Assembly (NCBI GenBank): GCA_002314325.1
Contig: DCFC01000011.1
Span: 1-27,544 of the forward strand
Reading direction: 5' to 3'
DNA: 27,544 nt
Origin: Megamonas hypermegale
GTDB lineage: Bacteria > Bacillota > Negativicutes > Selenomonadales > Selenomonadaceae
Shown here: positions 417-17,194 of the stretch, piece by piece
How the letters are laid out: each line of letters opens with the position of its first letter
Numbering within the stretch: position 1 is the stretch's first letter
Position numbers and translations under genes: made by a program
Notes under the pieces: model-generated
Database searches by the model: none
The model's input: the letters and a program-made list of their open reading frames with translations, nothing else
What the model was told of the DNA's origin: nothing

Positions 417-447
417 AAAGGCAGATTAGGTTGTCTAATCTGCCTTT
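417..447 (-). terminator. Intercistronic hairpin behind the GspG-like prepilin gene
   Basis: There is a perfect 13-bp stem, AAAGGCAGATTAG paired with CTAATCTGCCTTT, around a 5-nt loop between two prepilin genes of one operon. On the transcribed minus strand the stem is followed by TTTATAT rather than a long U-run. It may be a leaky terminator or a 3' stabilising structure that raises expression of the upstream prepilin over the downstream one. Confidence 0.7.
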
Positions 448-454
448 TTACTAA

Positions 455-937: not shown

Positions 938-967
938 TATTAAAATCTCCTTTAATTTAAGTTTGTT

Positions 968-1399: not shown

Positions 1400-1403
1400 A
1401 TGA

Positions 1404-2513: not shown

Positions 2514-2521
2514 GTTTCCTC

Positions 2522-4150
2522 CTATAAATTTTTTATGATATTGTCTACGGCATTTTTATTGCCGATCTGATTGTAAAGCTCATTTAGACTTGTTTTGCCT
2601 GCCATTACATAACTAAGTCCCTTTTCCCACATGGAAACGAATTTATTCTTTTTAAGAGCTGCCTGTATCTCACGCATGGAGCTTGTATGATACAGAATAT
2701 CTTTTAAATCCGTATTGAAAAATACGTACTCCACAACGGCAATTCTTGTTATATAGCCTGTATGATTGCAGTGGGTACAGGCATCTCTTTCTTCTTTCGT
2801 TCCTATTTGCTTTAAATCAATTTTTGAAAGCATATCGTATTCTTCTTTGTCAAGCAGAATCTTGTCCGATTCGGACAAGTTGTATTTTCTGCTGCAATAA
2901 GGACAAAGTATCCCGATAAGACGCTGACTGCTTATAAGATTTAGCTGGTTTAAAAGAGAGACTTTAGATACACCCAAGTCCAAAAGACGGGAAATTGCCG
3001 TTATACAGTCATTGGCGTGAAGCGTCGTAAAAACCTGGTGCCCTGTTGCACCGGCTTGAATTACTGTTTCAGCATCCATCCTGTCGCGAATTTCGTTATA
3101 TAATATAATTTCCGGATCTTGACGCAGTATTACTTTTAAGGCTGTCTGAGCGTCCAGATTGGTATTTTTATCTTCTGACTCGTGAATTTGCACCTGGCAG
3201 TAATTGTTGTTGTAAATTTCTACCGGATCTTCTATCGTTACAACCGTTTTCTCGTAGTCAGCATTTTGATACACGTAGTTAATCTGTGCATGCAGTGTTG
3301 TTGTTTTACCGCTACCAGTCGGCCCCGTTATGATAAATAATCCCGTCGGACAGATTTTAAGCTGCCTTTGAATATTTCTAATATCTTTTTCACTGTATCC
3401 GATATCATAAAGCGTTTTTTGCTTACTTAAAAACTGCTGAAGACGAAGCACTACTTTTTCCATGCCGCTCACCATCGGCATAGTAGAGATACGCACGTCA
3501 ACGTCTATGCCGTTTCTGTCTTTTGTAAGAAATGAACCTTTATTCGGCATGTTTTTTCGCAAAGTATCGGAACTTGCTGATGTATCAAGACGTTTTATTG
3601 CCATAGATATTCGCGGTATTTCACTTTCTGTAAAAGCATAGTCGTTCGAGTGATTTACGTTTTTACCGTTTATACGGTAAAGAATTCGAATTACATAATG
3701 CCCATTTTCCCTATATGGCAGAAAATGAATATCGGAGGCGCCGAACTCTATGGCATCGGCTATAATGTTTTTTACCTTGTTTAAAATAGGCGCTGTATCT
3801 TCCGTCGTATCTTGCGCTTCATAAACATTTTGTCTTTTAGCAAGGTCTACTTCATAGTAATGTTTCAGTGCCTCTTGAATGTTATAGTCGTCTGTTAACA
3901 CAAGATATATCGTTATATTCGAATTGAAAATATCCTCAATTTCATTTTGCTTTAACAGACTTTCTGTCATACAAGCTATATAAAGTACATTATTTCTTAA
4001 TTCAAAAGGAACAATGCCGTACTTTTTAGCATTTTGCTCTGAAATAAAATCTAAAATATTTTTAGGAATGCTCATCTTAACAAGAGATTTATCTAAAAAC
4101 TTTCCTCTTTCGCGCATTTCCTCTTTTAAGCTCTCATCTGTTATAATCAT
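2522..4150 (-). CDS. Assembly ATPase, GspE/PilB family
   Basis: This 542-residue secretion ATPase powers fibre polymerisation. It has an N-terminal GspE-N-like domain (about 25-110), FGASDIHFLPY at 136-146, Walker A GPTGSGKT at 276-283, an Asp box IEDPVE at 306-311, Walker B-type EIILYNEIRD at 347-356, a His box TTLHAND, and a tetracysteine zinc site (C416, C419, C458, C461). The zinc site is typical of GspE/PilB and absent from the retraction ATPase PilT. The usual VGEIRD reads YNEIRD here. The start ATG overlaps the secretin stop as ATGA, implying translational coupling. One of the GTCCGAWTCGGAC palindromes lies inside the gene, encoding LSESDK. Confidence 0.95.
   Translation of the reverse strand: MIITDESLKEEMRERGKFLDKSLVKMSIPKNILDFISEQNAKKYGIVPFELRNNVLYIACMTESLLKQNEIEDIFNSNITIYLVLTDDYNIQEALKHYYEVDLAKRQNVYEAQDTTEDTAPILNKVKNIIADAIEFGASDIHFLPYRENGHYVIRILYRINGKNVNHSNDYAFTESEIPRISMAIKRLDTSASSDTLRKNMPNKGSFLTKDRNGIDVDVRISTMPMVSGMEKVVLRLQQFLSKQKTLYDIGYSEKDIRNIQRQLKICPTGLFIITGPTGSGKTTTLHAQINYVYQNADYEKTVVTIEDPVEIYNNNYCQVQIHESEDKNTNLDAQTALKVILRQDPEIILYNEIRDRMDAETVIQAGATGHQVFTTLHANDCITAISRLLDLGVSKVSLLNQLNLISSQRLIGILCPYCSRKYNLSESDKILLDKEEYDMLSKIDLKQIGTKEERDACTHCNHTGYITRIAVVEYVFFNTDLKDILYHTSSMREIQAALKKNKFVSMWEKGLSYVMAGKTSLNELYNQIGNKNAVDNIIKNL
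2861..2879. repeat. GTCCGAWTCGGAC palindrome, site 1 (inside gspE/pilB)
   Basis: The 19-bp perfect dyad is CTTGTCCGATTCGGACAAG, 9-bp arms around a central T. It falls within coding sequence and is translated as part of LSESDK. It shares the 13-bp core with eight other sites in the element. Confidence 0.9.
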
Positions 4151-5667
4151 TTATTCACATTCACCTTCTCACTTGTTTCATCCGCCGGCTGCATTAAATT
4201 TTCAAGAAGCTTATCCTCTTTTTTTATGCCATTTAGAAGTTGACTGTCCATGCCGTCATTTACGATATACGGTGTGATGGTTATGAATACTTCCGTATTG
4301 GATTTATTTTTCGTATGATATTCAAAAAGTTTACCCAGCAGCGGCAGTTTTCTTAAAAGCGGGATGCCGGAGATTGTATCAAAGTCTTCTTTACTCATAA
4401 GACCGCCGATAACGAAAGTCTGGCCAGATTTTAAATGCGCTACGGTTTTAGCCTCCCTGCTTGCTATCTGTGGCGCCTGCATACCGCCTTGTTCAATGTA
4501 GCGGACAATATTTTTTATTTCCGCTTCAATATTTAAACTTACAATACCGCTGGCTTTATCTATAGCAGGTTTTATTTTCAATGTGCTGCCGACATCTTGA
4601 TAGTCAAACGTTATGTTCGTACTTCCGTCTGCTGTATTTTGCTGCGGAATTGGTACGCTGTCGCCCATAAAAAGCTCCGCTTCATAACCGTTTTCTGTTA
4701 AAATTACAGGTCTCGACATTACTTTGCCTTTGGAGATGGCTTCGTTGAACTGACTGGTTACGCCAAAAGTAAGTTTTGTACCCCAATTTTGATGTGACAG
4801 CGGGTCATCAACATTATGAACATAGCTTGGCATAGAGTAGGTAAATCCGGCATCCAGATCATCTGTATGAGTAGTTTCAATAAGCTGTGCCACAATAAGG
4901 CATTGACTTACAGGCTTATCTATGGAAGCGATAAGTCTTCCTGCCTGCATTACTTCATAGCTGTTGCCGGTTACAGTTACAGTAGAATATTGGTCGTTTG
5001 ATACGATATTGGTATCATCAATTCCCAAGCCTTTGAGTTCCGTAATAAGCTTTTCCTTATCGGCGTAACGTACATTAAAACGCTGCGATGTAAGCATGGT
5101 GTCTTCATCTTTTGCGATGCGGTATGTGCTGTTTGTATAAGACCAGTTTAGATTATATGCGGCCGTTAAATATGCTATCGTATCTTCAAGTGTTACTCCT
5201 TTAAGCGTTGCATAAACTTTAACATCTGTTAAATCATCATCATCAACGACGAGGATATTGTCGCCGGATATTTTACCGAGTGAATAAAATACTGCTGTAA
5301 GCGGCGCCCCCTGCCAGTCAAAATTATATTTTGGTCCGTAAGATACAGGCTCATCTTTAAGTTCTACATCGTCATTTGCTGTAGGAATATACTGATAATC
5401 CGTCGGAACTCCTTCACCGTAAAGATTAATCGGAACAGGTGTTTCGTTTATCCTTGTAATTTCTACATTTTTAGCGTTTTGCGGAATGTGTTTATCCTGT
5501 TCATATCTTTTCAGTACATCTTCTGCCGTAATTTTAGGAGTATCTTCTTTTTTAAACTGTGCTGCAAAATCCATAGCTTCCTGACTTGGTGCAGCCTGCA
5601 CAATCGGTGTAAAAATAATACTTAGCGGAAGAGCCGTCAAAACTACTTTATTTGCTATTTTTTTCAT
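4147..5667 (-). CDS. Outer-membrane secretin, PilQ/GspD family
   Basis: The 506-residue protein has a Sec signal peptide (residues 1-25, cleavage near IVQA). It carries a compact N-domain similar to the N0/STN fold (about 108-200, containing GVTLEDTIAYL), one N1-like repeat (about 205-270) and the secretin barrel. The barrel includes a VPIPQQN gate region, VGSTLKIKP and the signature SGQTFVIGGL near 430, followed by GIPLLRKLPLLGKLFEYH. This forms the gated outer-membrane channel of a pilus or type II-like secretion system. It is shorter than classical GspD (about 650). No pilotin lipoprotein is visible nearby. It requires an outer membrane, which is the best clue to the host envelope. Confidence 0.95.
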   Translation of the reverse strand: MKKIANKVVLTALPLSIIFTPIVQAAPSQEAMDFAAQFKKEDTPKITAEDVLKRYEQDKHIPQNAKNVEITRINETPVPINLYGEGVPTDYQYIPTANDDVELKDEPVSYGPKYNFDWQGAPLTAVFYSLGKISGDNILVVDDDDLTDVKVYATLKGVTLEDTIAYLTAAYNLNWSYTNSTYRIAKDEDTMLTSQRFNVRYADKEKLITELKGLGIDDTNIVSNDQYSTVTVTGNSYEVMQAGRLIASIDKPVSQCLIVAQLIETTHTDDLDAGFTYSMPSYVHNVDDPLSHQNWGTKLTFGVTSQFNEAISKGKVMSRPVILTENGYEAELFMGDSVPIPQQNTADGSTNITFDYQDVGSTLKIKPAIDKASGIVSLNIEAEIKNIVRYIEQGGMQAPQIASREAKTVAHLKSGQTFVIGGLMSKEDFDTISGIPLLRKLPLLGKLFEYHTKNKSNTEVFITITPYIVNDGMDSQLLNGIKKEDKLLENLMQPADETSEKVNVNK

Positions 5668-5680
5668 AAAATCAATATCC

Positions 5681-6337
5681 TCACTTTGCTATATTGTATG
5701 CAATCTGATTACCGTTAGAAAAAGTAATGCCGCTGCTGTTTATATTGGAAATTGTGCTGCCGTTAAACTTATCTCCTTCTTTTAAAACCTGACCGTCAAC
5801 AATGGCTATATTCTGCCCGTTTTGATCAGAAGATATGCCCTGTATCTGCGGGCTTTGTTTTGGCAGGCTCATTTTCGGCAAATCTCCGGAAATAGCAGGT
5901 ATCGGCGGGAGACTTCCCGACGGGTAATTATAATTTAGAATTGCCGGCAGATTAGTGTTTGCCGTATTTACGGTTTTTCCCGCCTTTTGCGGTGCATTAT
6001 CTACATAAATCGGGCTTTGTTTTGTTACAAACGGATTTTCAAGTCCGGCTAAGTTTATAATTTCATTTTCCGGTTCAGTTTTAATTTGTTTTTGTTTTTT
6101 TGCCGCTAAGACGTTTTCTTTCGGACTTTTTATTTTGTTTGTATTATCATCCGGCATATCAAAATATGAAAAATATACTGTACCGACTGCACATAAAAGA
6201 AAGACTCCGACTAATATACTTATGGGCAGCAGCATTTTCGATGTCGGTTTTTTGCTGACACTTAAATTTTTTATATAGTCATTTTCATAATCTTCGTCTA
6301 TGTTTAGTTTCACTTTCTTTTTAAATAGATTTATCAT
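5681..6337 (-). CDS. PilP/GspC-like alignment protein
   Basis: The preferred start is ATG 6337, 8 bases after a GGTGG motif, giving 218 residues; GTG codons 12 bases upstream are possible. It has a cytoplasmic basic head, one membrane helix (about 35-55), a proline- and lysine-rich linker with LENPFV (like the RNPF motif of PilP/GspC), and a C-terminal beta domain. In that domain, IAIVDGQVLKEGDKFNG and ISNINSSGITFSNGN match the homology region that contacts the secretin. It links the inner-membrane platform to the secretin. It lies between the PilO-like and secretin genes, as in pilMNOPQ clusters. Confidence 0.85.
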   Translation of the reverse strand: MINLFKKKVKLNIDEDYENDYIKNLSVSKKPTSKMLLPISILVGVFLLCAVGTVYFSYFDMPDDNTNKIKSPKENVLAAKKQKQIKTEPENEIINLAGLENPFVTKQSPIYVDNAPQKAGKTVNTANTNLPAILNYNYPSGSLPPIPAISGDLPKMSLPKQSPQIQGISSDQNGQNIAIVDGQVLKEGDKFNGSTISNINSSGITFSNGNQIAYNIAK

Positions 6338-6349
6338 ATTCTTCACCAC

Positions 6350-6859
6350 CTATTTTGTATAAATTCTATAGACCATATTTGCCTTTACCTTACCTGTTTC
6401 ATCAGTATTGGAAAGTTCCAATTCCTGAATGCTCATAAGCGCATCACTTTGATTTGTGAAATTTACAACCGTATTAATCACGTTTTCCCAGTTGCCGGTA
6501 AAGGATAAATCATATTCTTTAAAAGAAGATTTTTCCTTTTTGTTGCTTTTAGATGTTTTTTCACTGAACTTATCTAAAAGAAGATTATTCTTGGCCAAAT
6601 TATTCAATATCCCTGTCTGAATCATGTCAAGGTTTTGCGTTTCGACAGGTCTGTACGCTTCAGAATTTATTTTTCTGGCCAGCTTGTTGTATTCGCCCAC
6701 TGTGTTTTCCATGTTGGCAATATTGGCTTTAACAACATTGGCATTTTGATAGCTGATACTGAGCTGAAAAAATAATCCTAGCATTACGCAGCCCATCACC
6801 GTGCTTATTAAGATATATTTCCAGACCCCTTTTATCTTAGATAATTCTTTTAGCTTCAT
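6350..6859 (-). CDS. PilO/GspM-like inner-membrane protein
   Basis: The 169-residue bitopic protein has a short cytoplasmic tail, a membrane helix at about 14-34, a coiled-coil stretch (about 36-65) and a small periplasmic alpha/beta domain ending in MSIQELELSN and VKANMVYRIYTK. That last domain is the ferredoxin-like fold expected of PilO/GspM. Sequence signatures are weak; the call depends on architecture and on its place between the PilM-PilN fusion and the PilP-like gene. It probably dimerises with the periplasmic part of the PilM-PilN fusion. Confidence 0.8.
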   Translation of the reverse strand: MKLKELSKIKGVWKYILISTVMGCVMLGLFFQLSISYQNANVVKANIANMENTVGEYNKLARKINSEAYRPVETQNLDMIQTGILNNLAKNNLLLDKFSEKTSKSNKKEKSSFKEYDLSFTGNWENVINTVVNFTNQSDALMSIQELELSNTDETGKVKANMVYRIYTK

Positions 6860-6866
6860 AATCTAC

Positions 6867-8306
6867 CTACTCTTTCTTCTTATCCGTATTTTTCTTTGTC
6901 TCCTTTATATCTTTAGCTATGGATATATCGGCAGAATTTATGCCGGCAGAGGCAGCATTGTCCATTTTTGTAAGTGTTATGCTTTTAAACCTGTCGTTGG
7001 ATAAGTTAGAGACAAATTCCTGGATTTTTACGGGCTCAGTAGAAACAAGGCTCATTTTTATCCAATCAGAGCTGTTTTTTGCCGTAACGGTATTGTCTAT
7101 GGAGAGTTTCGTAAATCCCAGTTCATTATTGTTTGGCTTATTAGCAAGTATTTCAGAGATTATAGGACCTACAGGTTCTTGTGATTTTTTCACGTTTTGA
7201 ATTATGCCGTCTTCTTTTTTCAAAATGGTTATCTGCCTGTTGGCATAATCAAAATCATTTTGCAGTTTATCCGGCACTTCAATGCCGCTAAGATAATATA
7301 CAAATACTGCCTGCACTGTTATTACAAAGGTGAAAAACAAGATTAAAACGCGGGTTATTTTCTTTACGTCCTGCTCAATCTGAATTAGTTTTGTCGTTTC
7401 TTTTACGGCATTTGGCAGTACGTTAGCCACCGTAAACTTAATAAATTTTACCGGCGTAACTTCAAATTCTTGTAGAAGTGTGCCGAGCCCTATATAATAT
7501 TCATCAATTTCTGTCTGTGTGTATTTTTTAAAAATAAGCGAACCATTCGGTCTAAGCTTATATACACGGGAAGACTCGTGGGCAAAAGTTATTTTGGAAA
7601 CAGAGGATTTTGCACCGATAACATAGATATCCGCACTACCTGTGATATTCTTAAATTTATTTTTAGCGACAGTGTTAACCAGTAGCAGTAAATCGGAAAG
7701 ATCGTATCCTGACAGATTATTCAAAGCATATTCTTTAGATAAATTCATTTTAAAGAGACCGCCGAGCGGTGAATACATAATTACGCTGGCACTATTTTTA
7801 TAAAGCTCAAATATATATGCTTCATTTTTAGGCGTATTCTTGTACCTTACAGCGCAAAAACTCATTGGTTCAGCGGATTTAACCAGAAAATCCGCTGCTT
7901 TTGCTGCCTGTAACACAGCGTCAATATATTCCTTTTCTATGCTGTATACAGTTTTAAAACTAAATGTATTGCTTTTAAGCGAAAACGGCAGGCTGTAATA
8001 ATATTTTTCCGTATCAACGGCATTTGCTTTTAGAAATTTATCTATATCCGCCTCTTTTTCGCTATTTGTAGGATAGTAATAATAATCAAGTCTGAATTTA
8101 TCGTCCGGAAGAACTATATACGCTTCTTTGTCTTTTATAAGTGCAGCTATTTCCATAAAACAACTCGTCAAAGCATCCACGTTCTTACTTGTATAAGCCT
8201 CATACATAGACCTGAAAGATATCAGTGATTTAACCTCAAGTTTGTCTTTTTTCTTTTTAGTAGCAACAATCTGCGTTGTATCTTCAAAAATAGTTATGGC
8301 AATCAT
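6867..8306 (-). CDS. PilM-PilN fusion, GspL-like
   Basis: The 479-residue protein has an N-terminal ~1-300 that reads as a degenerate actin-like (PilM/GspL cytoplasmic) domain. A single membrane helix follows at about 319-340 (VLILFFTFVITVQAVFVYYL), then a coiled segment and a PilN-like periplasmic domain (about 390-455, FVSNLSNDRFKSITLTKMD). Type IV pilus systems usually have separate PilM and PilN. The fusion is the arrangement of GspL in type II systems. It couples the ATPase in the cytoplasm to the periplasmic PilO-PilP complex. RBS AAGGAG lies 7 bases before ATG. The C-terminal tail is lysine-rich. Confidence 0.85.
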   Translation of the reverse strand: MIAITIFEDTTQIVATKKKKDKLEVKSLISFRSMYEAYTSKNVDALTSCFMEIAALIKDKEAYIVLPDDKFRLDYYYYPTNSEKEADIDKFLKANAVDTEKYYYSLPFSLKSNTFSFKTVYSIEKEYIDAVLQAAKAADFLVKSAEPMSFCAVRYKNTPKNEAYIFELYKNSASVIMYSPLGGLFKMNLSKEYALNNLSGYDLSDLLLLVNTVAKNKFKNITGSADIYVIGAKSSVSKITFAHESSRVYKLRPNGSLIFKKYTQTEIDEYYIGLGTLLQEFEVTPVKFIKFTVANVLPNAVKETTKLIQIEQDVKKITRVLILFFTFVITVQAVFVYYLSGIEVPDKLQNDFDYANRQITILKKEDGIIQNVKKSQEPVGPIISEILANKPNNNELGFTKLSIDNTVTAKNSSDWIKMSLVSTEPVKIQEFVSNLSNDRFKSITLTKMDNAASAGINSADISIAKDIKETKKNTDKKKE

Positions 8307-8317
8307 AAAAAGACTCC

Positions 8318-8617
8318 TTATTCTTCATCGAAAATATTTTTAAACTGCTTTATATGCCGAAATTGAGCGTAAACCATTTTATTGGCGCCGAAAGCTTTCA
8401 TCTTGCGAATTTTAGCGTCCTTCATTATATCTGCCACAAAACCTATGCCCATACTGTTTATATCTTCCGTTTCCGAAAAATCCAGGTTTACCTCCGTAAT
8501 ACCGTTTGCCAAAGCGTCTCTGTATTCATCCATAATTACAAGATACTCATCAGGGGAAAGCGGTTTTCCTTTCATTTTGATATTAGCCGTATTGTTATTG
8601 ATTGTTACGTATTTCAT
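8318..8617 (-). CDS. STAS-domain anti-sigma factor antagonist (RsbV/SpoIIAA-like)
   Basis: The 99-residue protein is a single STAS domain. LDFSETEDINSMGIGFVADI around residues 46-65 matches the phosphorylation loop. The DSSG/DSTG motif reads NSMG here, leaving Ser55 as the likely phosphorylatable residue. In partner switching the kinase next door would phosphorylate it and the PP2C phosphatase would reactivate it. Its gene starts immediately after the phosphatase stop (spacing 3) and is followed 11 bases later by the PilM-PilN gene. The switch is thus embedded in the secretion operon. Whether its target is a sigma factor or the machine itself cannot be seen. Confidence 0.88.
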   Translation of the reverse strand: MKYVTINNNTANIKMKGKPLSPDEYLVIMDEYRDALANGITEVNLDFSETEDINSMGIGFVADIMKDAKIRKMKAFGANKMVYAQFRHIKQFKNIFDEE

Positions 8618-8620
8618 ATA

Positions 8621-9694: not shown

Positions 9695-9697
9695 ACA

Positions 9698-10180: not shown

Positions 10181-10186
10181 ACCTAT

Positions 10187-10606
10187 CTACTCACTTTGCG
10201 TATTATTTTGAGCTAAACTGTTGAGTTCTTCTTCTATCTGACTGAAAATCTCACCATCATCATAATAAACGGCAGGAACATCGCTATTATACGCTGAGAT
10301 AATATAAGGCTCTGTCAAACTGTCATAATACGCTTGCAATGTCTCAGCAAGCTCAACATCTCCTATCGTCTGGGCCTGAGCTATTTGCATCCTCAGTTCA
10401 TCTTTAAGCGCATTGTTACTATCCAGTGCATTTTGAGCCATAAACACATAGCCCTGACTTTCCTTATCTTGCAAATCCGTGCTCAAATCCTGCATATTAA
10501 ACTCTGCAATAGCTGTATTTGCTTCCTGCATATTAACCTGAGCACTAGCAGGACCTGTAAATGTACATGCAGCCATTAAAATCGCTGCTATCATTTTTGT
10601 CTTCAA
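10187..10606 (-). CDS. Small exported protein of unknown function
   Basis: I do not recognise a family. The preferred start is TTG 10606, because AAAGGTG lies 5 bases upstream; the GTG at 10615 would sit inside that ribosome-binding site. This gives 139 residues beginning MKTKMIAAILM, a Sec signal peptide cleaved near ASA-QVN, and a small acidic helical mature protein ending NSLAQNNTQSE. There are no cysteines after the signal peptide and no membrane helix. It lies between the TraF-like peptidase and the anti-sigma gene with 6-14 base gaps, so it is probably a periplasmic accessory of the machine or a sensor input. Confidence 0.7.
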   Translation of the reverse strand: MKTKMIAAILMAACTFTGPASAQVNMQEANTAIAEFNMQDLSTDLQDKESQGYVFMAQNALDSNNALKDELRMQIAQAQTIGDVELAETLQAYYDSLTEPYIISAYNSDVPAVYYDDGEIFSQIEEELNSLAQNNTQSE

Positions 10607-10620
10607 ACTAATCACCTTTC

Positions 10621-11127
10621 TTAGAATTTGATAAGTAAAATAACTTTGTTTTTTATACTTTTAAGAGGAACACAGCCGAAATATCTGCCGTCATAAGAAT
10701 TTACGGCCGTTCCCATCGGCAGGAAATATCCTTCTTCTACCGTATGGTCTCCGTAAAACGGTTTGATTTCCCTACCACGTGAGTCTATTGTCGATATTGT
10801 TCCGGCGTATTTACCGTTTATCTGAATAAATCTGTCATCAACGGTAAACCGGTCGTTTTCAAGTGCTTTTATTTCTTTTAGTAGACTGTCTTTTGGCATA
10901 ACGTAACCTCTTTCCACCATAAACGCTTTTACGTCTACCGGCGGATTGAATATCACCATGTCGTCTTTTTCGTATTCTCTGGCAAACATTTTAGGAACAA
11001 CAAAATATATTCCTTTTGTTACCGATGGAGAGGTGTTTACGGTAAACGGAGTATACGAACACAAGTTGAAGATTAAAAGCACTACCAAAGCAAAAATAGC
11101 GCCTATAAATTTTTTATTTCTGTCCAT
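10621..11127 (-). CDS. TraF-like signal peptidase, S26 family
   Basis: The 168-residue protein has an N-terminal membrane helix (about 7-24). The catalytic motif NTSPSVTKGIY at 31-41 gives Ser35 as nucleophile, where TraF-type enzymes read NxTxSxPxGxY. Lys84 in SLLKEIKAL is the general base. The C-terminal SYDGRYFGCVP matches SxDSRYxGxV. In IncP plasmids TraF matures the conjugative pilin. This is the first gene of the secretion operon. Its substrate is unknown: it might process the exported protein next door, a pilin, or another element-encoded protein to the left. No good ribosome-binding site precedes ATG 11127. Confidence 0.88.
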   Translation of the reverse strand: MDRNKKFIGAIFALVVLLIFNLCSYTPFTVNTSPSVTKGIYFVVPKMFAREYEKDDMVIFNPPVDVKAFMVERGYVMPKDSLLKEIKALENDRFTVDDRFIQINGKYAGTISTIDSRGREIKPFYGDHTVEEGYFLPMGTAVNSYDGRYFGCVPLKSIKNKVILLIKF

Positions 11128-11233
11128 GTTTCCATATTAGCACGAAAGTCGATTTTGAAAGTCTCGATTTTTGAACAAAATGAAAAAAGCCTGTAAGCCT
11201 TGATACATAAGGATTTCTAAACTTAAAAACCTT

Positions 11234-11268
11234 TTTTTGTCCGACAAAAACAAGGAACTTTTTGTCGG
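11234..11268. repeat. Nested inverted repeats TTTTTGTC-C-GACAAAAA and TTTTTGTCGG
   Basis: A perfect 17-bp palindrome, TTTTTGTCCGACAAAAA, lies at 11234-11250. Its right half (CCGACAAAAA, 11241-11250) can instead pair with TTTTTGTCGG at 11259-11268 across an 8-nt loop, so two mutually exclusive hairpins are possible. It looks like a shortened relative of the GTCCGAWTCGGAC family. Confidence 0.8.
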
Positions 11269-11274
11269 TAAATA

Positions 11275-11303
11275 AAAAAGTAGTCCGATTCGGACTACTT
11301 TTT
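11275..11303. repeat. GTCCGAWTCGGAC palindrome, site 3 (14-bp arms)
   Basis: A 29-bp perfect dyad: left arm AAAAAGTAGTCCGA, central T, right arm TCGGACTACTTTTT. It ends in a T-run on both strands, so it could also act as a bidirectional terminator between the 11417-12136 gene and the secretion operon. Confidence 0.9.
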
Positions 11304-11351
11304 CTGGATATTCTTTTTTTCAATGAGAACATATTTTGAAATCTGAAATAT

Positions 11352-11364
11352 GTCCGATTCGGAC
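11352..11364. repeat. GTCCGAWTCGGAC palindrome, site 4 (core only)
   Basis: The exact 13-bp core GTCCGATTCGGAC is present, but the flanks do not pair. It is the only site in the family without extended arms, which shows that the core alone is conserved. Confidence 0.9.
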
Positions 11365-11395
11365 TAATTCGATTAATAAAAAGGTACAAACAAAA

Positions 11396-11418
11396 AAGTT
11401 GTCCGATTCGGACAACTT
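11396..11418 (-). terminator. GTCCGAWTCGGAC palindrome, site 5, also an intrinsic terminator
   Basis: The 11-bp arms are AAGTTGTCCGA and TCGGACAACTT around a central T. On the minus strand the stem is followed by TTTT. It overlaps the stop codon of the 11417-12136 gene, so it fits a terminator for the gene block upstream. Confidence 0.8.
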
Positions 11419-12136
11419 ACAAATGATTAATCTGTTCTATTATATTATCTCTAAAACGATAAAGTAACTTCTTTATTTTTCCTTCAGGTATATTGTATCT
11501 ATGAGAAATGTTACTGATATGCTCAAAAGGATTGTTTATTTTATATAATAAGATATCCTTTTCCGAGTTATCCATTCCATTTATTTCTTCATCAACAATT
11601 TTTTGCACTGCCATTAACTTTTTGTCTTTTTTATATAAACTTTTCAGATAATCATAACTCACATCAACATATATATTATTTCTCAATAAATATTTTATCT
11701 CGGCTTTTATCTTATTTTGTAATATAAATAACAAATTCAAGGATACCAATAACATATCGTATGAAGTATCCTTGATAAATAAATTATGGACATCACAAAA
11801 CATTAGCTTTGTTAGACACTGTATCATTTTGTTATTCATAGTTATAATTCCGGATTTACTTATACTCAATGTTAAAGCGATTTTAGACAAGCTGTAACAC
11901 TGTTCGTATTTCAGCCTTAACAAATTTTGATATTTTGAAGGTAGCATATCGAAAAAATTACTAATTAACTTTATATCATATCGCAGGCATAATTGCTTAT
12001 AACGGATTTTATAGATTATTATATTTTTCTTGTTTAGCTGTATATATTCATCTTGTTTTAAAAATAACTGTTCTCGTGAACTGACATCAAAAAACAGTGT
12101 TATCCTATCTTTAATAATCTCTTCCTTTATAAACAA
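11417..12136 (-). CDS. Putative regulator with two sigma-region-4-like HTH segments
   Basis: The start chosen is TTG 12136, 7 bases after GGAGG, giving 239 residues; a TTG at 12151 is also possible but contains that RBS. I do not recognise a named family. Near the first third, MLPSKYQNLLRLKYEQCYSL with KIALTLSISKSGIITMNNKM has the pattern of sigma-70 region 4. The C-terminus, MDNSEKDILLYKINN with ISHRYNIPEGKIKKLLYRF, repeats it. No regions 1-3 are seen. It may be a phage-type transcription regulator or a diverged sigma-like factor, and a possible client of the partner switch encoded just downstream. That link is inference. Confidence 0.55.
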   Translation of the reverse strand: MFIKEEIIKDRITLFFDVSSREQLFLKQDEYIQLNKKNIIIYKIRYKQLCLRYDIKLISNFFDMLPSKYQNLLRLKYEQCYSLSKIALTLSISKSGIITMNNKMIQCLTKLMFCDVHNLFIKDTSYDMLLVSLNLLFILQNKIKAEIKYLLRNNIYVDVSYDYLKSLYKKDKKLMAVQKIVDEEINGMDNSEKDILLYKINNPFEHISNISHRYNIPEGKIKKLLYRFRDNIIEQINHL

Positions 12137-12156
12137 CGTATAAACCTCCAATTTGT

Positions 12157-12462
12157 TTAAATATGCTTTTCTAATCTTATTATTAATTGATTTATACCAT
12201 CAGTAGTACATGAATAATCTTCTATCTGCTTCAAAATAGAACTGATTTCATCCTTTTGTTTATTATATTCCTGAAAATCAATGACTCTTTTTTTCATATC
12301 CACTAAGATTTGCAATTCTTCTATCTTTAGCAGTTTGATTACTGTACTTTTTATAACATAAAATTTGTTGTAATCTATCTCACTTGTCAGTATAAGTTGT
12401 TTCAATTTTACTATTTCAAATGAGATTTTTTCTTTGATTTCACTTAATGTCATTAATATCAT
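12157..12462 (-). CDS. Small coiled-coil protein, unknown
   Basis: The 101-residue protein is rich in Lys, Glu and Ile, with heptad-like stretches along almost the full length (for example SEIKEKISFEIVKLKQLIL and QDEISSILKQIEDY-like segments). There are no membrane helices or signal peptide. RBS AGGAGA lies 8 bases before ATG. It follows the XRE gene by 12 bases and precedes the two-HTH regulator by about 20 bases, so all three are probably co-transcribed. It may be a binding partner of one of these regulators; no function can be assigned. Confidence 0.6.
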   Translation of the reverse strand: MILMTLSEIKEKISFEIVKLKQLILTSEIDYNKFYVIKSTVIKLLKIEELQILVDMKKRVIDFQEYNKQKDEISSILKQIEDYSCTTDGINQLIIRLEKHI

Positions 12463-12474
12463 TTTGCTATTCTC

Positions 12475-12669
12475 CTATTCATTAAAAAAATTCTTGTCTA
12501 TTTTAAAGTATCTGCATATTTTTATAAGATTGCTTTCTGATGGGGTCATTTTATTTGTTTCCCATCGACGGATTGTAGAGCGATTTACAAGTAAATTTTC
12601 TGCCAATTCTTCTCTTGTTAAATAATTTTGCTCTCGTAAATACCTTATTTTAGCACCGATTTCACTCAT
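12475..12669 (-). CDS. XRE-family HTH regulator (short)
   Basis: The 64-residue protein is a single Cro/C1-type helix-turn-helix. IGAKIRYLREQNYLTREELA leads into LAENLLVNRSTIRRWETNKM, the recognition helix followed by the Trp-Glu pair common in XRE proteins, and PSESNLIKICRYFKI closes the fold. No extra domain is present, so it acts as a minimal DNA-binding protein. It belongs to the minus-strand gene set downstream of parB. Its operator is not identified. Confidence 0.85.
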   Translation of the reverse strand: MSEIGAKIRYLREQNYLTREELAENLLVNRSTIRRWETNKMTPSESNLIKICRYFKIDKNFFNE

Positions 12670-12687
12670 AGATGTATCCCTACAATT

Positions 12688-13002
12688 CTATAATAAATCT
12701 TTTAATTGTTTGGCTGCTGTTTCCAACGTTTCTATTAAACTATTTAAATTCTGTCTGTTTTTTTTACTGTATTTGCAAGCTGAAAATTCAAATGCTATAG
12801 CTTTACATTTTGCGTTTATATTCATCTTTAAGCCAGTAACCATATTTTCCAGGTCACTAAATTTACCTTCAGACAGAAGTCTTTTCAATCGTTCGTTTTC
12901 TTTAGTCAGATTTTCGACTTCAGTTTTTAACCAGCCATAATCTTTAGGCGGAACCACTTCTATTACCTTTATTACTTTTTCATCTTGTTGCATTTTGTTC
13001 AC
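12688..13002 (-). CDS. Small coiled-coil protein, unknown
   Basis: The 104-residue frame starts at GTG 13002, directly behind the stop of the preceding gene, with AAGGA just upstream; ATG 12993 is an alternative. A leucine-zipper-like coiled coil (LKTEVENLTKENERLKRLL, about 25-43) is followed by a helical C-terminal half with KYSKKNRQNLNSLIETLETA. It is soluble. Its location after parB and an overlapping small gene suggests plasmid maintenance or regulation, but nothing in the sequence fixes a role. Confidence 0.6.
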   Translation of the reverse strand: MNKMQQDEKVIKVIEVVPPKDYGWLKTEVENLTKENERLKRLLSEGKFSDLENMVTGLKMNINAKCKAIAFEFSACKYSKKNRQNLNSLIETLETAAKQLKDLL

Positions 13003-13212
13003 TCATTCCTTTGCTTCAAAAGTATGAAATACTTTAAGTGTAGCCACCGCAATTTCAATTTTATTAAACTTTTTATTTTTGTCATAACCATATATAAATG
13101 CCTGTCCTTCATCATTTTGATAAAAACCAGAACCTTTTACATAGGCAAAGCTTCCATTTATTTTATAAAGTGTTCTCGCCCTGAATACCACCTTCTCCAC
13201 CATCTTTTTCAT
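13003..13212 (-). CDS. Small protein overlapping the parB 3' end, unknown
   Basis: The 69-residue frame starts at ATG 13212 with AAAGGA 6 bases upstream, inside the last 50 bases of parB in another frame. The sequence (FRARTLYKINGSFAYVKGSG, FIYGYDKNKKFNKIEIAVATL) looks like a small beta-rich domain. The good ribosome-binding site and tight junction with the next gene support a real, translationally coupled gene. No family is recognised. Confidence 0.6.
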   Translation of the reverse strand: MKKMVEKVVFRARTLYKINGSFAYVKGSGFYQNDEGQAFIYGYDKNKKFNKIEIAVATLKVFHTFEAKE

Positions 13213-14311
13213 GATTTTTTCCTTTCAGTTTAGCCGTCAAATCACTGTTACAATTTGCAATCAGCTTTTCCAGATAATCTACAGTCGCCAGTAGCCTTAA
13301 ACCTTTATCATCGTTTTTTACCTGCTCTACAAGTTTATCTATTTTGTTTTTGTTTTCTTCTAAAATTGAGAGGCAGGTCTCAATGGCCACAACCTCCAGA
13401 TCTTCATTTTCATTATTTTCCACTATTTTTTCTATCTCTGCTTTTTTTATCTCATTTGAGGCTGTAGCTGTTTTTGCCTGTTCTTTCTTTGTTTTACTGT
13501 TATCAGTTTTTTTCTTAGCGGTGGATTTTTTTACAGGAACAGCTTCTTCTTTTGGGCTGTAATCATCTTTCAGATCAGATACATCATAACCTTCTTTTAT
13601 GGATTTCTTCAGATTTCTGATTTCCATCGTCGATACATCGTCTTTTTTCGAAATTTCTTCATAAGCAATTTTCTGTTCTTCTTTATTTAAGCCGGTTAGT
13701 TCACTGGCTTTAGAAAATGTCAGTTTGGAATTTTCATCATCTACAGCATTTTGTATCTCCGGCGATAGTTTATTGTAATCCCAATAACGTTGTAGGTCAG
13801 TCTCAGATATTCCAAGTTTTTTAGCTATATAAGACCGTAAACTGCCTTTTTCATTATTTCTTTCCTTTTCTTTTTTCAAGATATCTGTCATAACAGCAAT
13901 TTCATTGTAACGTGTTTTAAAATCTTTCTCCCTCTGCGTATTTCTGCCAATTATAGCTGCTTTTTCATCATCTTCCGTCTTTATATCATTATTTACAAAG
14001 TACGGAACTTTTTTTGTTCTAAGTAGACCTTCTTCAAAAGCTTTAATTGTTGCCAGCTGCCGACGATGCCCGGAAATTATTAAAAGTTCTCCATCTTTTT
14101 TTATAACTTCAATAGGATTTTTTACGCCGCCGCTTCTCACTATCTCCGGTATTAGATCATCAACATTGAGTTTGCCATAAATAGCTTCGTTTTCTGGATT
14201 AATTTTTAATTTATCCGCTTCAATATAATCGCAAACCAATCTAACCTGTTGTTTAGGCATACTGGATGCCGAAGAAAATACATCTGCCATGTTTATATTC
14301 TTTATTGCCAT
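13163..14311 (-). CDS. parB: ParB-family partition / CTPase protein
   Basis: The 382-residue protein has a ParB N-terminal nuclease-like CTPase domain (about 30-130) with the motif ISGHRRQLA, where chromosomal ParB usually reads GERRxRA. NTQREKDFKTRYNEIAVMTDIL follows, then a central HTH (SLRSYIAKKLGISETDLQRYW, about 155-180) and a helical region. A lysine-rich linker at about 265-285 leads to a C-terminal dimerisation-like segment. It should bind centromere sites and spread. Two GTCCGAWTCGGAC palindromes lie immediately upstream between parA and parB and are the natural parS candidates. The canonical chromosomal parS sequence is absent from the window. The gene follows parA in the same direction. 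Confidence 0.9.
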   Translation of the reverse strand: MAIKNINMADVFSSASSMPKQQVRLVCDYIEADKLKINPENEAIYGKLNVDDLIPEIVRSGGVKNPIEVIKKDGELLIISGHRRQLATIKAFEEGLLRTKKVPYFVNNDIKTEDDEKAAIIGRNTQREKDFKTRYNEIAVMTDILKKEKERNNEKGSLRSYIAKKLGISETDLQRYWDYNKLSPEIQNAVDDENSKLTFSKASELTGLNKEEQKIAYEEISKKDDVSTMEIRNLKKSIKEGYDVSDLKDDYSPKEEAVPVKKSTAKKKTDNSKTKKEQAKTATASNEIKKAEIEKIVENNENEDLEVVAIETCLSILEENKNKIDKLVEQVKNDDKGLRLLATVDYLEKLIANCNSDLTAKLKGKNHEKDGGEGGIQGENTL

Positions 14312-14327
14312 AAAATATCACCTTTCT

Positions 14328-14354
14328 AAAATGTGTCCAAATCGGACACATTTT
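14328..14354. repeat. GTCCGAWTCGGAC palindrome, site 6 (one mismatch)
   Basis: Arms AAAATGTGTCC and GGACACATTTT flank AAATC; the core reads GTCCAAATCGGAC, one base off the family core. It sits just before the parB start, inside the likely ribosome-binding/leader region. Confidence 0.85.
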
Positions 14355-14371
14355 TTGTTATGTATGTGGGA

Positions 14372-14400
14372 AAGAATGTGTCCGATTCGGACACATTCTT
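14372..14400. repeat. GTCCGAWTCGGAC palindrome, site 7 (14-bp arms)
   Basis: A 29-bp perfect dyad: left arm AAGAATGTGTCCGA, central T, right arm TCGGACACATTCTT. It lies 10 bases after the parA stop, in the parA-parB gap, a classic parS location. Confidence 0.92.
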
Positions 14401-14410
14401 ATTCCTGTTT

Positions 14411-15220
14411 TTATTTATCGTAGAGAAGCTCATTAACAAATTTATTGATTTGACGGGAAAACAGACAGTTCGACGACAATTCCAAAATACTTTTTCCTGT
14501 TTCAATGGACTCAATAAACCTCTTGCTTGCTTCGTAATTTGTGGCAAGCTTAATATTCGTTTTAAAAAATTTATATTTGGAAGATGACTTATTATAACTG
14601 TTTGTGATGTACTTGTTTAAAAGTGCCCCACGCAGTATAAAGTTATTCTGCGGATCGTATTCATCGTAATCTTCATCATAAAGCTGCCGATCCTGAAGCA
14701 CGTTGTTGAATTGTTTATCCATCTCATCGACACCACTGTCTGCATAAGCATCCGGATTTGTAACAATAATCACCTGGTTTGTTGCGATAAGTGCATTATA
14801 AACCGTAAAGTTGATATCCGGCGCATTATCTATCAGACAAAAGTGATATTCGCCTTCTACGGCTTTCAGTGCGTTTCTAAGGATAAATGTCTTATTTTCC
14901 TGGTTGTTTAAATTTATATCCTTATGTTCCATATTAAGCGGCAGCAGTGTCATGTTGCTAGGTAGAACATCAATCTGTCCCTCCTTAAATTTTCGTGCCG
15001 GATAAATAGCACGCTTTATATCAAAGTTCTGTTTTAAGAATACATCTGATAAAGTCAATTCTTTATCTTTTAATCCGAAAAACATACTGGCGTTTCCCTG
15101 TTTGTCATTGTCTATAAACAATACCTTTGCTCCTGCCGCAGCCAGTGCATATGCAACATTGGTGGAAATAGTAGTCTTGCCGACGCCGCCTTTTAAGTTA
15201 ATAAAACTGTATGTTATCAT
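14411..15220 (-). CDS. parA: ParA-type partition ATPase
   Basis: The 269-residue P-loop ATPase has a deviant Walker A motif, KGGVGKTT, at 10-17. A' is represented by IDNDKQGNAS (usually DxDPQGN), and Walker B by FCLIDNAPDI. There is no N-terminal DNA-binding extension, so it is a Type Ib or Soj-like short ParA. RBS AAGGAG precedes the ATG. With parB it should segregate the element when it replicates outside the chromosome. Partition genes on an integrated element suggest a plasmid-like stage. A candidate small RNA is encoded divergently just upstream. Confidence 0.93.
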   Translation of the reverse strand: MITYSFINLKGGVGKTTISTNVAYALAAAGAKVLFIDNDKQGNASMFFGLKDKELTLSDVFLKQNFDIKRAIYPARKFKEGQIDVLPSNMTLLPLNMEHKDINLNNQENKTFILRNALKAVEGEYHFCLIDNAPDINFTVYNALIATNQVIIVTNPDAYADSGVDEMDKQFNNVLQDRQLYDEDYDEYDPQNNFILRGALLNKYITNSYNKSSSKYKFFKTNIKLATNYEASKRFIESIETGKSILELSSNCLFSRQINKFVNELLYDK

Positions 15221-15233
15221 TTAAACTCGCTCC

Positions 15234-15262
15234 TTGAACTATTACTACCTTTTTGATATAAT
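15234..15262 (+). promoter_or_regulatory. Sigma-A-type promoter pointing away from parA
   Basis: TTGAAC at 15234-15239 and TATAAT at 15257-15262 have an exact 17-base spacer, on the strand opposite to all surrounding genes. There is no open reading frame between it and the strong terminator 40 bases downstream. Confidence 0.6.
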
Positions 15263-15268
15263 TATTAA

Positions 15269-15330
15269 TACAAAGTAGTTTTGGTAGTAGGTTTTTATTT
15301 CGGCTATGGATTTATCCATAGCTTTTTTTT
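15269..15330 (+). ncRNA. Candidate small RNA, antisense to the parA leader
   Basis: A transcript from the promoter at 15234-15262 would start near 15269. It would end in a textbook terminator: GCTATGGA (15303-15310), loop TTTA, TCCATAGC (15315-15322) and eight Ts. That predicts an RNA of about 60 nt. It contains GGTAGTAGG, and an inverted partner TACTACC lies at 15243-15249. It is complementary to the gap between the SAP-domain gene and parA, so it could control parA expression as plasmid antisense RNAs do. It is predicted only from promoter and terminator sequence. Confidence 0.5.
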
Positions 15331-15520
15331 ATGCCTTTAAAAATGCTTTGACACAATCATTAGACCACAGACAGTCCGTATTATCGCATTTCATAGTGGA
15401 ATAACATTCATTGTTTCCTTCGGCTTTCTGAATGCAGTGTATAAGTTCCGCTTTTTTTGCTTTTTTAGGAAGCATAATACCTTTTTCAGCTGCAAATTTT
15501 TTGATTTCCTTGATTGTCAT
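15329..15520 (-). CDS. SAP/Rho-N-like small protein with C-terminal Cys cluster
   Basis: The 63-residue protein has a helix-extension-helix SAP-type fold in TIKEIKKFAAEKGI and KAKKAELIHCIQKAEGN. A compact Cys motif with CYSTMKCDNTDCLWSNDC follows, four cysteines likely to bind a metal. SAP proteins with an EGNxxC...CxxxxCLWxxDC tail are familiar as small proteins in many bacteria. They are expected to bind nucleic acid; the exact role is unknown. It precedes parA by 108 bases, with the small-RNA locus between them. Confidence 0.75.
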   Translation of the reverse strand: MTIKEIKKFAAEKGIMLPKKAKKAELIHCIQKAEGNNECYSTMKCDNTDCLWSNDCVKAFLKA

Positions 15521-15550
15521 TTTTCTAACCTCACTATAAAATTTTTATTT

Positions 15551-15573
15551 AATATGTCCGAATCGGACATATT
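15551..15573. repeat. GTCCGAWTCGGAC palindrome, site 8 (11-bp arms)
   Basis: Left arm AATATGTCCGA, central A, right arm TCGGACATATT. It abuts the stop codon of the 15574-15852 gene and lies 30 bases before the SAP-protein start. No T-run follows, so it is a poor terminator. Confidence 0.92.
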
Positions 15574-15852
15574 TTAAACCTGTTTTTCCGGCGATATATC
15601 TACATCCAATTCTTCAGACAGTGCCAAATCTACCTTTTTAAGAAAATCGCTGATACTTATATTCTGCTTATCAGCCAAAATCTGAATTAAAGCAAGATGC
15701 ATACAGATAATTTTCATATCTTCGCCACCTACCAAAAAACCTACTTCATTGTCATCATATATCACACCTGTGATATATGCGGCAATTTCCTTATTTTTGT
15801 TCATTTCTAACATATCCATAGTTTTAGCGATAACTGTATTTTTATTAATCAT
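15574..15852 (-). CDS. Small acidic protein, unknown
   Basis: The 92-residue soluble protein includes AKTMDMLEMNKNKEIAAYIT, VGFLVGGEDMKIICMHLALIQILADKQ and an acidic tail LSEELDVDISPEKQ. I do not recognise the family; length and context resemble small phage/ICE replication-module proteins. Its start overlaps the end of the MmcB-like gene by 8 bases, so it is translationally coupled. Confidence 0.65.
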   Translation of the reverse strand: MINKNTVIAKTMDMLEMNKNKEIAAYITGVIYDDNEVGFLVGGEDMKIICMHLALIQILADKQNISISDFLKKVDLALSEELDVDISPEKQV

Positions 15853-16294
15853 TTCTCAATGCCTCCTTAACCGTATATCTGCTTAAACTTCGTATCATGC
15901 AGTACATTAGGTCAATTTTCTTACCCAGATGTACTGTTTTTTGTTTTGCTCGTCTTTTCAATATAAGGTCATACCCGTTATATACATATATGCCGGCGCC
16001 GTAAAATCTTATATCTATATCCTGCTGTACTTGCTCATATACATCTTTTGTTAATACAAGATAATTAAAATCACCGACAAAAGACAACTTGGCACGAGAA
16101 TAGAAATCGTCTCTTGAAGTTTTTATCTCATAGCAGCGGAATACATTTTTACAGTCCATTGTCATGTAATCCACTCTTTCTGTGCCGTATCCTTCACCGA
16201 GTGTTACTTCCAATGCGCCGTAAACACCTACGCCGTCAGCTTTTGTCGCAAGCACAAGAGCCTGTTCTACTTCTTTTGTTAATTCTGTTTTCAT
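15845..16294 (-). CDS. MmcB-like PD-(D/E)XK nuclease
   Basis: The 149-residue protein has a restriction-endonuclease-like core. An acidic residue lies in GTERVDYMTMD (about 35-45), and the catalytic EIK of RCYEIKTSRDDFYSRAK lies near residue 56. KLSFVGDFNYLVLTKDVYEQV and GAGIYVYNG follow. This pattern is shared with MmcB-family DNA repair proteins and similar phage nucleases. It probably nicks or processes DNA during replication or repair of the element. It sits between ssb and a small coupled gene. Substrate and specificity are not deducible. Confidence 0.7.
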   Translation of the reverse strand: MKTELTKEVEQALVLATKADGVGVYGALEVTLGEGYGTERVDYMTMDCKNVFRCYEIKTSRDDFYSRAKLSFVGDFNYLVLTKDVYEQVQQDIDIRFYGAGIYVYNGYDLILKRRAKQKTVHLGKKIDLMYCMIRSLSRYTVKEALRND

Positions 16295-16309
16295 AAAATC
16301 ACCTCACTT

Positions 16310-16714
16310 CTAAAACGGTATATCCTCATCCGGCGGTATTTCTTCACCGAATTGCATCTGTTCTGCTGTAGCCGCATTATTACCATTAGCAGTTTCAGCA
16401 GGCTTCTTACCAACAAATTCAAGCTCATCCATGATAACTTCTGTACTGTATCGTTTACTGCCGTCCTGCGCCGTGTAACTGCTTACTTGAATGCGTCCTG
16501 CCATGATAATCTGTCTGCCTTTAGCTAAATGATTTCCGCATATTTCAGCAAGCTTGTTGAAAACAACAATCGGAATAAAATCCGCCTGCTGCTGATCATC
16601 TTTACTTATTCTGCGGTTTACGGCAAGGTTAAATCTTGCCACGGCAATTCCTGTTTGCGTATAACGTACTTCCGGATCTTTTGTAAGCCTGCCGGCTAAT
16701 ATTACTTTATTCAT
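16310..16714 (-). CDS. ssb: Single-stranded DNA-binding protein
   Basis: The start is ATG 16714, with GAGGAG 6 bases upstream. The longer frame to 16771 would add 19 residues before the OB fold and is not supported. The 134-residue protein begins MNKVILAGRLTKDPEVRYTQTG, a canonical SSB opening, continues with FIPIVVFNKLAEICGNHLAKGRQI and ends in the acidic tip PPDEDIPF, which recruits repair and replication enzymes. It coats single-stranded DNA at the element's fork. It sits with dnaB and the replisome organizer. Confidence 0.96.
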   Translation of the reverse strand: MNKVILAGRLTKDPEVRYTQTGIAVARFNLAVNRRISKDDQQQADFIPIVVFNKLAEICGNHLAKGRQIIMAGRIQVSSYTAQDGSKRYSTEVIMDELEFVGKKPAETANGNNAATAEQMQFGEEIPPDEDIPF

Positions 16715-16791
16715 CTTTATCTCCTCATTCTTCCGTAAATTTGAACCAGCCGTTTTTAAGAGCCTGTTCACTTAAATTTTTCTGTGCTTCC

Positions 16792-16989
16792 TTAAAAGTG
16801 GTAAATAATATATTTTCCCTCTCTTTTCAGCTTTTCTACATACTTTCCATAGCTCATCTTATGTGCATCGGCTTCTAGTGCCAGCCGTTCCAAATGGGCC
16901 ATACGTTCTTTCACATCTTTTTCTCTTTTAGCTGCTGCCGTCATAACTATATCCGTTTTTCGTTTTCTACCTTTATTTTCCCGACTCAT
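16792..16989 (-). CDS. Small basic helical protein, unknown
   Basis: The 65-residue, strongly basic protein begins SRENKGRKRKTDIVMTAAAK, has a helical middle (EKDVKERMAHLERLALEADA) and ends KREGKYIIYHF. It overlaps the stop of the zinc-ribbon gene as ATGA. In the next frame the reading continues past its stop to the ssb ribosome-binding site without interruption (tail NGWFKFTEE), so a lost or shifted C-terminus is possible. No family is recognised. Confidence 0.6.
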   Translation of the reverse strand: MSRENKGRKRKTDIVMTAAAKREKDVKERMAHLERLALEADAHKMSYGKYVEKLKREGKYIIYHF

Positions 16990-17156
16990 TTAATAATGCC
17001 CCACTTTCTATACTTGTTTTTCTTATTCATCTTCCTGTAATAACACAGCCTGTCATCGCGACAAATACTTACCCATTTATCTATTTCCGGCAGGTAAAGC
17101 AGTTGCCGTTCATCCTCATCAAGTCGCTTACCGCATTTCCAACAGCAGTATTTCAT
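16986..17156 (-). CDS. Small zinc-ribbon-like protein
   Basis: The start chosen is ATG 17156. The frame is open to 17195, but its extra 13 residues are written by the palindrome at 17177-17193. The 56-residue product begins MKYCCWKCGKRLDEDERQ, a CxxC knuckle, with further cysteines at SICRDDRLCYY that could complete a zinc site. The C-terminus is basic. It lies right after dnaB. It is probably a nucleic-acid or protein-binding accessory. Confidence 0.65.
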   Translation of the reverse strand: MKYCCWKCGKRLDEDERQLLYLPEIDKWVSICRDDRLCYYRKMNKKNKYRKWGIIK

Positions 17157-17176
17157 ATCAATCACATCTTTTCTGC

Positions 17177-17193
17177 GTGTCCGAATCGGACAC
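17177..17193. repeat. GTCCGAWTCGGAC palindrome, site 9
   Basis: The perfect 17-bp dyad GTGTCCGAATCGGACAC lies 1 base after the dnaB stop. No T-run follows on the transcribed strand. Confidence 0.92.
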
Positions 17194-17194
17194 A

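Follow-up and report, generated by a model that had tools for sequence, protein, structure and literature searches.

Dispersed palindromes on an element of Megamonas hypermegale are very probably the parS sites of its own ParABS system

The window studied here is a stretch of 27,544 nucleotides from Megamonas hypermegale (contig DCFC01000011.1 of assembly GCA_002314325.1). It carries an element that encodes a ParA and a ParB, and nine 13-bp palindromes are dispersed over it. Eight of these are exact copies of the core GTCCGAWTCGGAC, while the ninth, GTCCAAATCGGAC, has a single mismatch. The two genes adjoin each other:

13163 to 14311, minus strand: parB, predicted site-binding protein with GHRR and NTQRE motifs and a helix-turn-helix (PHROG 4715, 2.6e-24)
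14411 to 15220, minus strand: parA, Walker-type partition ATPase (Pfam AAA_31, PF13614, 9.1e-40, above cut-off; PHROG 164, ParA-like, 2.1e-43)

The nine sites are named below by their centres, and half-arm lengths give the perfect complementarity counted outward from the site centre:

Site 2870, 2864-2876: exact core, perfect half-arm 9; inside a GspE-like ATPase gene (2522-4150)
Site 8648, 8642-8654: exact core, perfect half-arm 9; final codons of a SpoIIE-like gene (8621-9694)
Site 11289, 11283-11295: exact core, half-arm 14; first of a three-site cluster
Site 11358, 11352-11364: exact core, half-arm 6, that is, no complementary arms outside the core; three-site cluster
Site 11407, 11401-11413: exact core, half-arm 11; on the minus strand it resembles a terminator; three-site cluster
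Site 14341, 14335-14347: GTCCAAATCGGAC, half-arm 1 (core mismatch; arms complementary further out); parA-parB gap
Site 14386, 14380-14392: exact core, half-arm 14; parA-parB gap, 19 bases beyond the parA stop
Site 15562, 15556-15568: exact core, half-arm 11; 6 bases beyond the stop of the open reading frame (ORF) 15574-15852
Site 17185, 17179-17191: exact core, half-arm 8; just beyond the dnaB stop, overlapping the initial codons of ORF 16986-17195

A preliminary description of this DNA had announced nine such palindromes, eight exact and one with a mismatch, and all are located where it put them, far above chance. A search with GTCCGANTCGGAC, allowing at most two mismatches, gives 9 matches, against a mean of 0.28 and a maximum of 3 in shuffled sequence; none of 100 shuffles reaches 9. 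Its account of their placement holds as well: the host flank and the surroundings of the recombinase (21601-23148) of the integration module are free of sites, two are in the parA-parB gap, and three are clustered ahead of the secretion genes, with a sigma-like ORF on one side and the leading gene of that set, for a signal peptidase, on the other. The remaining sites touch stop codons or coding sequence, as it had said.

The ParB is recognised by its family and by its predicted fold. Besides PHROG 4715, a ParB-like partition protein, it matches PHROG 15982 (4.6e-22) and 27290 (5.7e-6). Its structural model, with a mean predicted local distance difference test (pLDDT) of 75.4 and a predicted template modelling score (pTM) of 0.53, matches Noc, ParB, KorB (8qa9) and Spo0J in Foldseek, where 24 matches reach E 0.001 or better. 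A profile of the protein finds Noc (4.2e-4) and ParB (1e-3) in the PDB, and aligns to phage ParBs over 231 columns with a probability of 99.6 and 27% identity. GHRR and NTQRE, which we take to be ParB motifs for binding cytidine triphosphate (CTP), fall at aligned positions. The pair has the predicted traits of a type I ParABS system: a Walker-type ParA, a ParB adjoining parA, and a repeated cis site linked to parAB.

We consider it very probable that the palindromes are the parS centromere sites of this system (13163-15220). Among the candidates of the preliminary description it is parS that is strongly supported, since phages identified by ParB alone have the same core where parA and parB meet. 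An alignment of ten phage ParBs (A3) led to 91 encoding loci. The 80 best were retained, and the junction was defined as the bases from -500 to +100 of the ParB match start. The exact core is present at the junction in 28 of these 80 viral loci and a core with at most one mismatch in 41; among loci non-redundant at 90%, the counts are 20 and 30 of 61. In 50 shuffles of the 80 junctions the mean is 0.02 exact sites. Because the ten A3 seeds came from palindrome-bearing records, the loci were recounted without seed or palindrome contigs. With the nine seed loci left out, 22 of 71 have the exact core and 35 a core within one mismatch; with all 17 loci on palindrome-picked contigs left out, the numbers are 18 and 30 of 63. 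In those 63 loci the 37,205 bp of junction contain 19 exact sites and the 432,201 bp outside the junctions contain 3; once made non-redundant, the loci still have the exact core in 12 of 48 and the core within one mismatch in 22 of 48.

The phage-like loci found by ParB span a GC (guanine plus cytosine) content of 0.27 to 0.66, and in phages the site often immediately precedes the ribosome-binding site of parB inside the operon. Variant words occur at the same place. In 8 of the 80 loci, all without the exact core, GTCCAAWTTGGAC stands at the junction, altered in both half-sites, and the variant of window site 14341, GTCCAAATCGGAC, is also near the parB start of five loci (L144, L145, L147, L148 and L152). 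In L119, L120 and L121 another palindrome, TTTGTGCTCATTATGAGCACAAA, stands whole or nearly whole (21-bp core) upstream of the ParB match start, at a distance of 31 to 94 bases; it probably serves as the site word for a ParB group of different specificity.

Viral records were also picked by the palindrome itself. The 19-mer TGTGTCCGAWTCGGACACA is found in 36 stretches from 34 viral contigs, while of two single control words a rearranged 19-mer gives none and a rearranged, shorter 17-mer gives three. Together with five phage records, the 34 IMG/VR contigs make up 39 palindrome records, some of them near-copies of one another. ParA is encoded in 22 of the 39 and a ParB relative also in 22; for the IMG/VR records the numbers are 20 and 21 of 34. 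When only IMG/VR records of at least 20 kb are counted, ParA is present in 16 of 18 (the exceptions are G002 and G009), in contrast to none of eight control records (three from the 17-mer and five with Ser-Asp repeats), five of which are at least 20 kb. Site placement was counted in the 20 IMG/VR records with ParA, and in 12 an exact site falls in the stretch that runs from the ParA match to roughly base 60 of parB (G004, G006, G008, G011, G014, G015, G017, G019, G021, G023, G029 and G033). In Flavonifractor phage Cormatin (W01) the site is at the parA-parB junction, inside the gene that follows parA and within its initial 65 bases, and the phage's ParB is a full-length member of PHROG 27290; in the excerpted part of PMC10197239, Cormatin appears among induced prophages, under F. 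plautii. Two other phage records look like chance matches: neither ParA nor ParB was found in Lacticaseibacillus phage P7.1 (W02), which has one core, and MT835617 (W04), which is among the 22 with ParA, has a weak ParA match and no exact core.

Several observations weigh against the parS reading. The junction has no exact core in 52 of the 80 loci found by ParB and no core within one mismatch in 39, which is a limit of the test; absence of the core from about half of the loci would fit a family whose ParBs diverge in specificity. ParA is absent from 17 of the 39 palindrome records, many of them short fragments. In eight of the 20 records used for placement the nearest exact site is elsewhere: 0.5-0.9 kb past the ParB match in four (G001, G010, G013 and G025), inside parB in two (G024 and G026), and far off in two (G020 and G032), although G032 has a one-mismatch copy at the junction (L139). 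The window ParB itself has no Pfam match, and its TIGR00180 match (33 bits) is below the cut-off of 58.45. It is only about 27% identical to the phage ParBs by profile, and the recognition helix differs; by eye it reads SETDLQRYWDY in the window family versus, for example, SPTQIARLNAI in phages, and the arginine common to both is suggestive only. Finally, partition does not need sites dispersed into coding sequence.

It had also been claimed that the arms outside the core differ from site to site, remain complementary within each site with stems of up to 14 bp, and point to an added structural role. Half-arms of 14 are indeed found at 11289 and 14386. Complementarity within the site is seen at eight of the nine sites and fails at 11358, with T/T at ±7 and A/A at ±8. 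The arms do differ between sites in part, but less freely than claimed: T-A is found at ±7 in seven of the nine, A-T at ±10 in six and A-T at ±11 in seven. From ±7 to ±14, 47 of 72 cells are complementary. When the right arms are permuted among the sites, the mean is 37.2 and 108 of 20,000 permutations reach at least 47, while base composition alone (27% complementarity per position) gives about 19. Given these three values, the arm symmetry in the window is mostly a shared symmetric consensus, and a modest part of it is genuine within-site covariation.

The relatives were studied in two sets. The first consists of 36 distinct sites from loci found by ParB, with the exact core or its GTCCAA / TTGGAC variants. 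At ±7, ±8, ±9, ±10 and ±11 these are complementary in 32, 27, 20, 11 and 7 of the 36. They pass the permutation test, both from ±7 to ±10 (90 of 144 cells against 73.8; 3 of 20,000 permutations) and from ±8 to ±14 (84 of 252 against 67.9; 86 of 20,000), and the excess reflects mainly ±8 and ±9. For the second set, 21 sites were fetched from five multi-site records; one at a record end was dropped and eight containing the search 19-mer were set aside, which leaves 12 sites without selection on the arms. These are complementary at ±7 to ±10 in 12, 12, 3 and 4 of 12, with isolated long half-arms of 14, 12 and 10. Since the relative sites are near chance by ±10, long arms are not a family trait, and symmetry in relatives is reliable only to about ±8. 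The preliminary description had proposed to look for the core and for arm covariation in relatives; the core was found at parA-parB junctions, arm symmetry fades beyond about ±8 and is near chance by ±10, and a structural role of the arms is not upheld as a property of the family, as both sets lose the symmetry.

The same measurements bear on whether the sites, besides being parS, form functional hairpins through their arms, either as single-stranded DNA in replication or transfer or in a structured transcript. Half-arms of up to 14, complementarity above permutation in the window and single long phage cases with half-arms of 12-14 would fit such a role. However, it is improbable, as symmetry is near chance by ±10 in the 36 relative sites and from ±9 in the 12 free ones, and site 11358 has no arms at all. 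Further, T-G pairs make up 3 of 27 listed non-complementary cells at ±7 to ±9, in a hand tally of the commonest pairs only, so there is no wobble signature, and Rfam gave no family at gathering score. A structured RNA would be expected to keep long stems through compensatory changes in relatives, and such stems were not found. Intrinsic terminators with a conserved stem are more improbable still. The region 8001-18600 has 11 terminator-like matches against a shuffled mean of 5.3 (standard deviation 2.8), and four of them are palindromes of this family; however, only one of the eight sites there, 11407, scores on the minus strand, where the genes lie, while 8648, 14341 and 14386 score on the plus strand. 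In phages a terminator ahead of the parB ribosome-binding site inside the operon would cut off parB. The RNA-hairpin and single-strand candidates of the preliminary description are thus poorly supported, and so is the terminator reading.

There is very little chance that the palindromes are operators not of ParB but of another regulator, such as the Cro-like protein (12475-12669) or the sigma-like protein (11417-12151). The sites are close to gene starts and ends, and a helix-turn-helix protein is encoded nearby, but in phages found by ParB alone the core goes together with ParA and ParB, and promoter-like matches in the region are at the level of shuffles (42 against 42.3). A quite different idea adds to the parS reading instead of replacing it: the core would be parS, and quasi-palindrome mutation by template switching would copy one arm onto the other, unselected, which would leave the outer arms perfect within a site but different between sites. 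This has a fair way to go before it could be called probable, but it is the most credible of the alternatives. Within-site covariation is modestly above permutation in the window and mostly absent in relatives, and template-switch mutation is described in the cited passage of PMC3820800 as extending the identity between the arms of imperfect inverted repeats. A perfect palindrome at 11234-11250, TTTTTGTCCGACAAAAA, 41 bases from the three-site cluster, resembles a collapsed site with its half-sites fused and could be a relic of this process. Against it stands the small sample of nine sites. For the outer arms we favour no function of their own; perhaps they are smoothed by template switching.

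If the sites are parS, the following mechanism can be proposed. A ParB dimer would read the symmetric word, with one helix-turn-helix per half-site, and would prefer the word with its flanks, TGTCCGAWTCGGACA in the window and mostly GTGTCCGAWTCGGACAC in relatives. ParB would then close as a CTP-dependent clamp and slide onto adjacent DNA, and nucleoid-bound ParA would move or anchor DNA loaded with ParB; in an excised or plasmid-like state the element would thereby be inherited. This follows the general mechanism of ParB clamps and ParA. The two sites in the parA-parB gap would be the basic centromere and the other seven extra loading points. By analogy it is plausible that the three-site cluster lets ParB influence the secretion genes in the manner of KorB, though promoter-like matches there are no commoner than chance. 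ParB binding, the CTP clamp, partition and gene control at these sites are all steps that we infer.

Among known systems, KorB and its operator OB of plasmid RK2 offer a close likeness: in the passages cited, KorB is a ParB-family CTPase clamp acting from operators, with IncC as its ParA partner, and it slides to reach promoters up to 1.5 kb away (PMC11790492). The site word of the window differs, and gene control by the window ParB is only putative. OB is reportedly an odd 13-bp palindrome present in about a dozen copies. The phage-plasmid N15 also has a phage-borne partition system, SopB with IR1-4, where the cited excerpt gives several single inverted-repeat sites with differing flanks (PMC7205306). 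It differs in its site word and in belonging to the SopB family of a linear plasmid prophage. SopB is a different branch of ParB, and the N15 sites are said to be scattered over the genome. RK2 and N15 are earlier examples of many dispersed sites. Extrachromosomal mycobacteriophages of the RedRock type encode ParA and ParB and have parS loci of their own, but in the part of the source cited these are direct repeats of an 8-bp motif, whereas the window sites are palindromes; the same source considers ParB diversity in these phages a way to avoid incompatibility (PMC7157519). Partition genes on integrating elements are described, in the excerpts cited, for SXT/R391, where srpMRC is of actin type (PMC4489591), and for ICEclc, where a growth-inhibiting ParA-Shi role is given (PMC6812849). 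Of the three PHROG families matched by the window ParB, 15982 and 27290 are listed as of unknown function, and the PHROG output gives no site word. The core, in four spellings, was not found in open-access literature, where most subscription papers are lacking, nor in phage-plasmid and partition listings. Our verdict is a ParABS centromere of a known kind, dispersed over the element, whose parS word did not turn up in the open-access literature searched.

The rest of the element gives the context. Positions 1-11127 hold secretion genes (secretin, GspE, GspF and pseudopilin-like ORFs) together with SpoIIE-like and histidine-kinase-type ATPase ORFs. The Sporomusa plasmid pSSP59 has a similar secretion and SpoIIE/STAS module, with 31% identity in the secretin and with ParA and TrbB/TrbG-type transfer genes alongside; the core was not found on it. 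Matches are also listed in Stanieria and other plasmids. At the 2870 site the encoded LSESDK is the same in 120 of 120 among the listed GspE homologues (of 378), which fits either a retained site or protein constraint. A protein with 100% identity to this GspE bears the name Megamonas hypermegale, which very probably places the element in Megamonas. Over the 8648 site two SpoIIE-like relatives (P0065 and P0066) end in NVFESNTK where the window has NVSDSDTKEKEG, so the site is altered there. From such C-termini (NVFESNT, in a 62% relative) we predicted that relatives use GTTCGAWTCGAAC; this failed at the GspE site, where LSESDK is constant. A second group of palindromes, CGTTACATTGTAACG twice, AACGTTACAATGTAACGTT and ACTACTACTAGTAGT, lies at 18822-18949 inside the Phage_rep_org_N gene, and these are possibly replication-origin sites adjoining dnaB. 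The large serine recombinase ends where a dicarboxylate-symporter-like frame (23128-23736, minus strand) gives way to unrelated residues, which looks like an integration of the element into this gene.

Some searches were unproductive. Neither the window ParB by itself nor alignment A2, which includes it, yielded a confirmed locus in the viral or genome contigs searched, while a protein search with the window ParB lists Megamonas relatives; ParBs of 92% and about 60% identity are among the proteins listed. A doubled core gave one stretch in genome contigs, a tandem repeat in a GC-rich contig (L010), and seven in viral contigs, five of which (L003-L007) are Ser-Asp-type repeats and were set aside.

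That the Megamonas element and many phages with distant ParBs share a centromere word may have consequences beyond partition. We regard it as rather doubtful, but worth stating, that co-resident elements bind each other's sites through the shared word, which would cause cross-incompatibility or allow riders with parS only, and that the nine dispersed sites regulate the secretion genes as KorB would. A rider is described in the cited part of PMC10954446, where SGI1 uses the partition system of IncC plasmids. The viral record G002 offers a lead, as its two cores are 49 bp apart and neither ParA nor ParB was found in its 29.9 kb; its early region may simply be cut off, because the right end reaches ribosomal-protein genes and the left end starts at terminase genes. 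By eye, this prophage (L183, 3-4047) also has repeated variable lectin-like ORFs and a reverse-transcriptase-like ORF, presumably resembling a diversity-generating retroelement.

The arms show that a symmetric binding word together with a few extended palindromes can mimic the covarying arms of a hairpin. The word itself gives a site to a little-described ParB group of phage-like loci. With it, phages and elements that carry partition become recognisable from DNA alone, and cross-talk between unrelated elements with a common centromere becomes directly testable.

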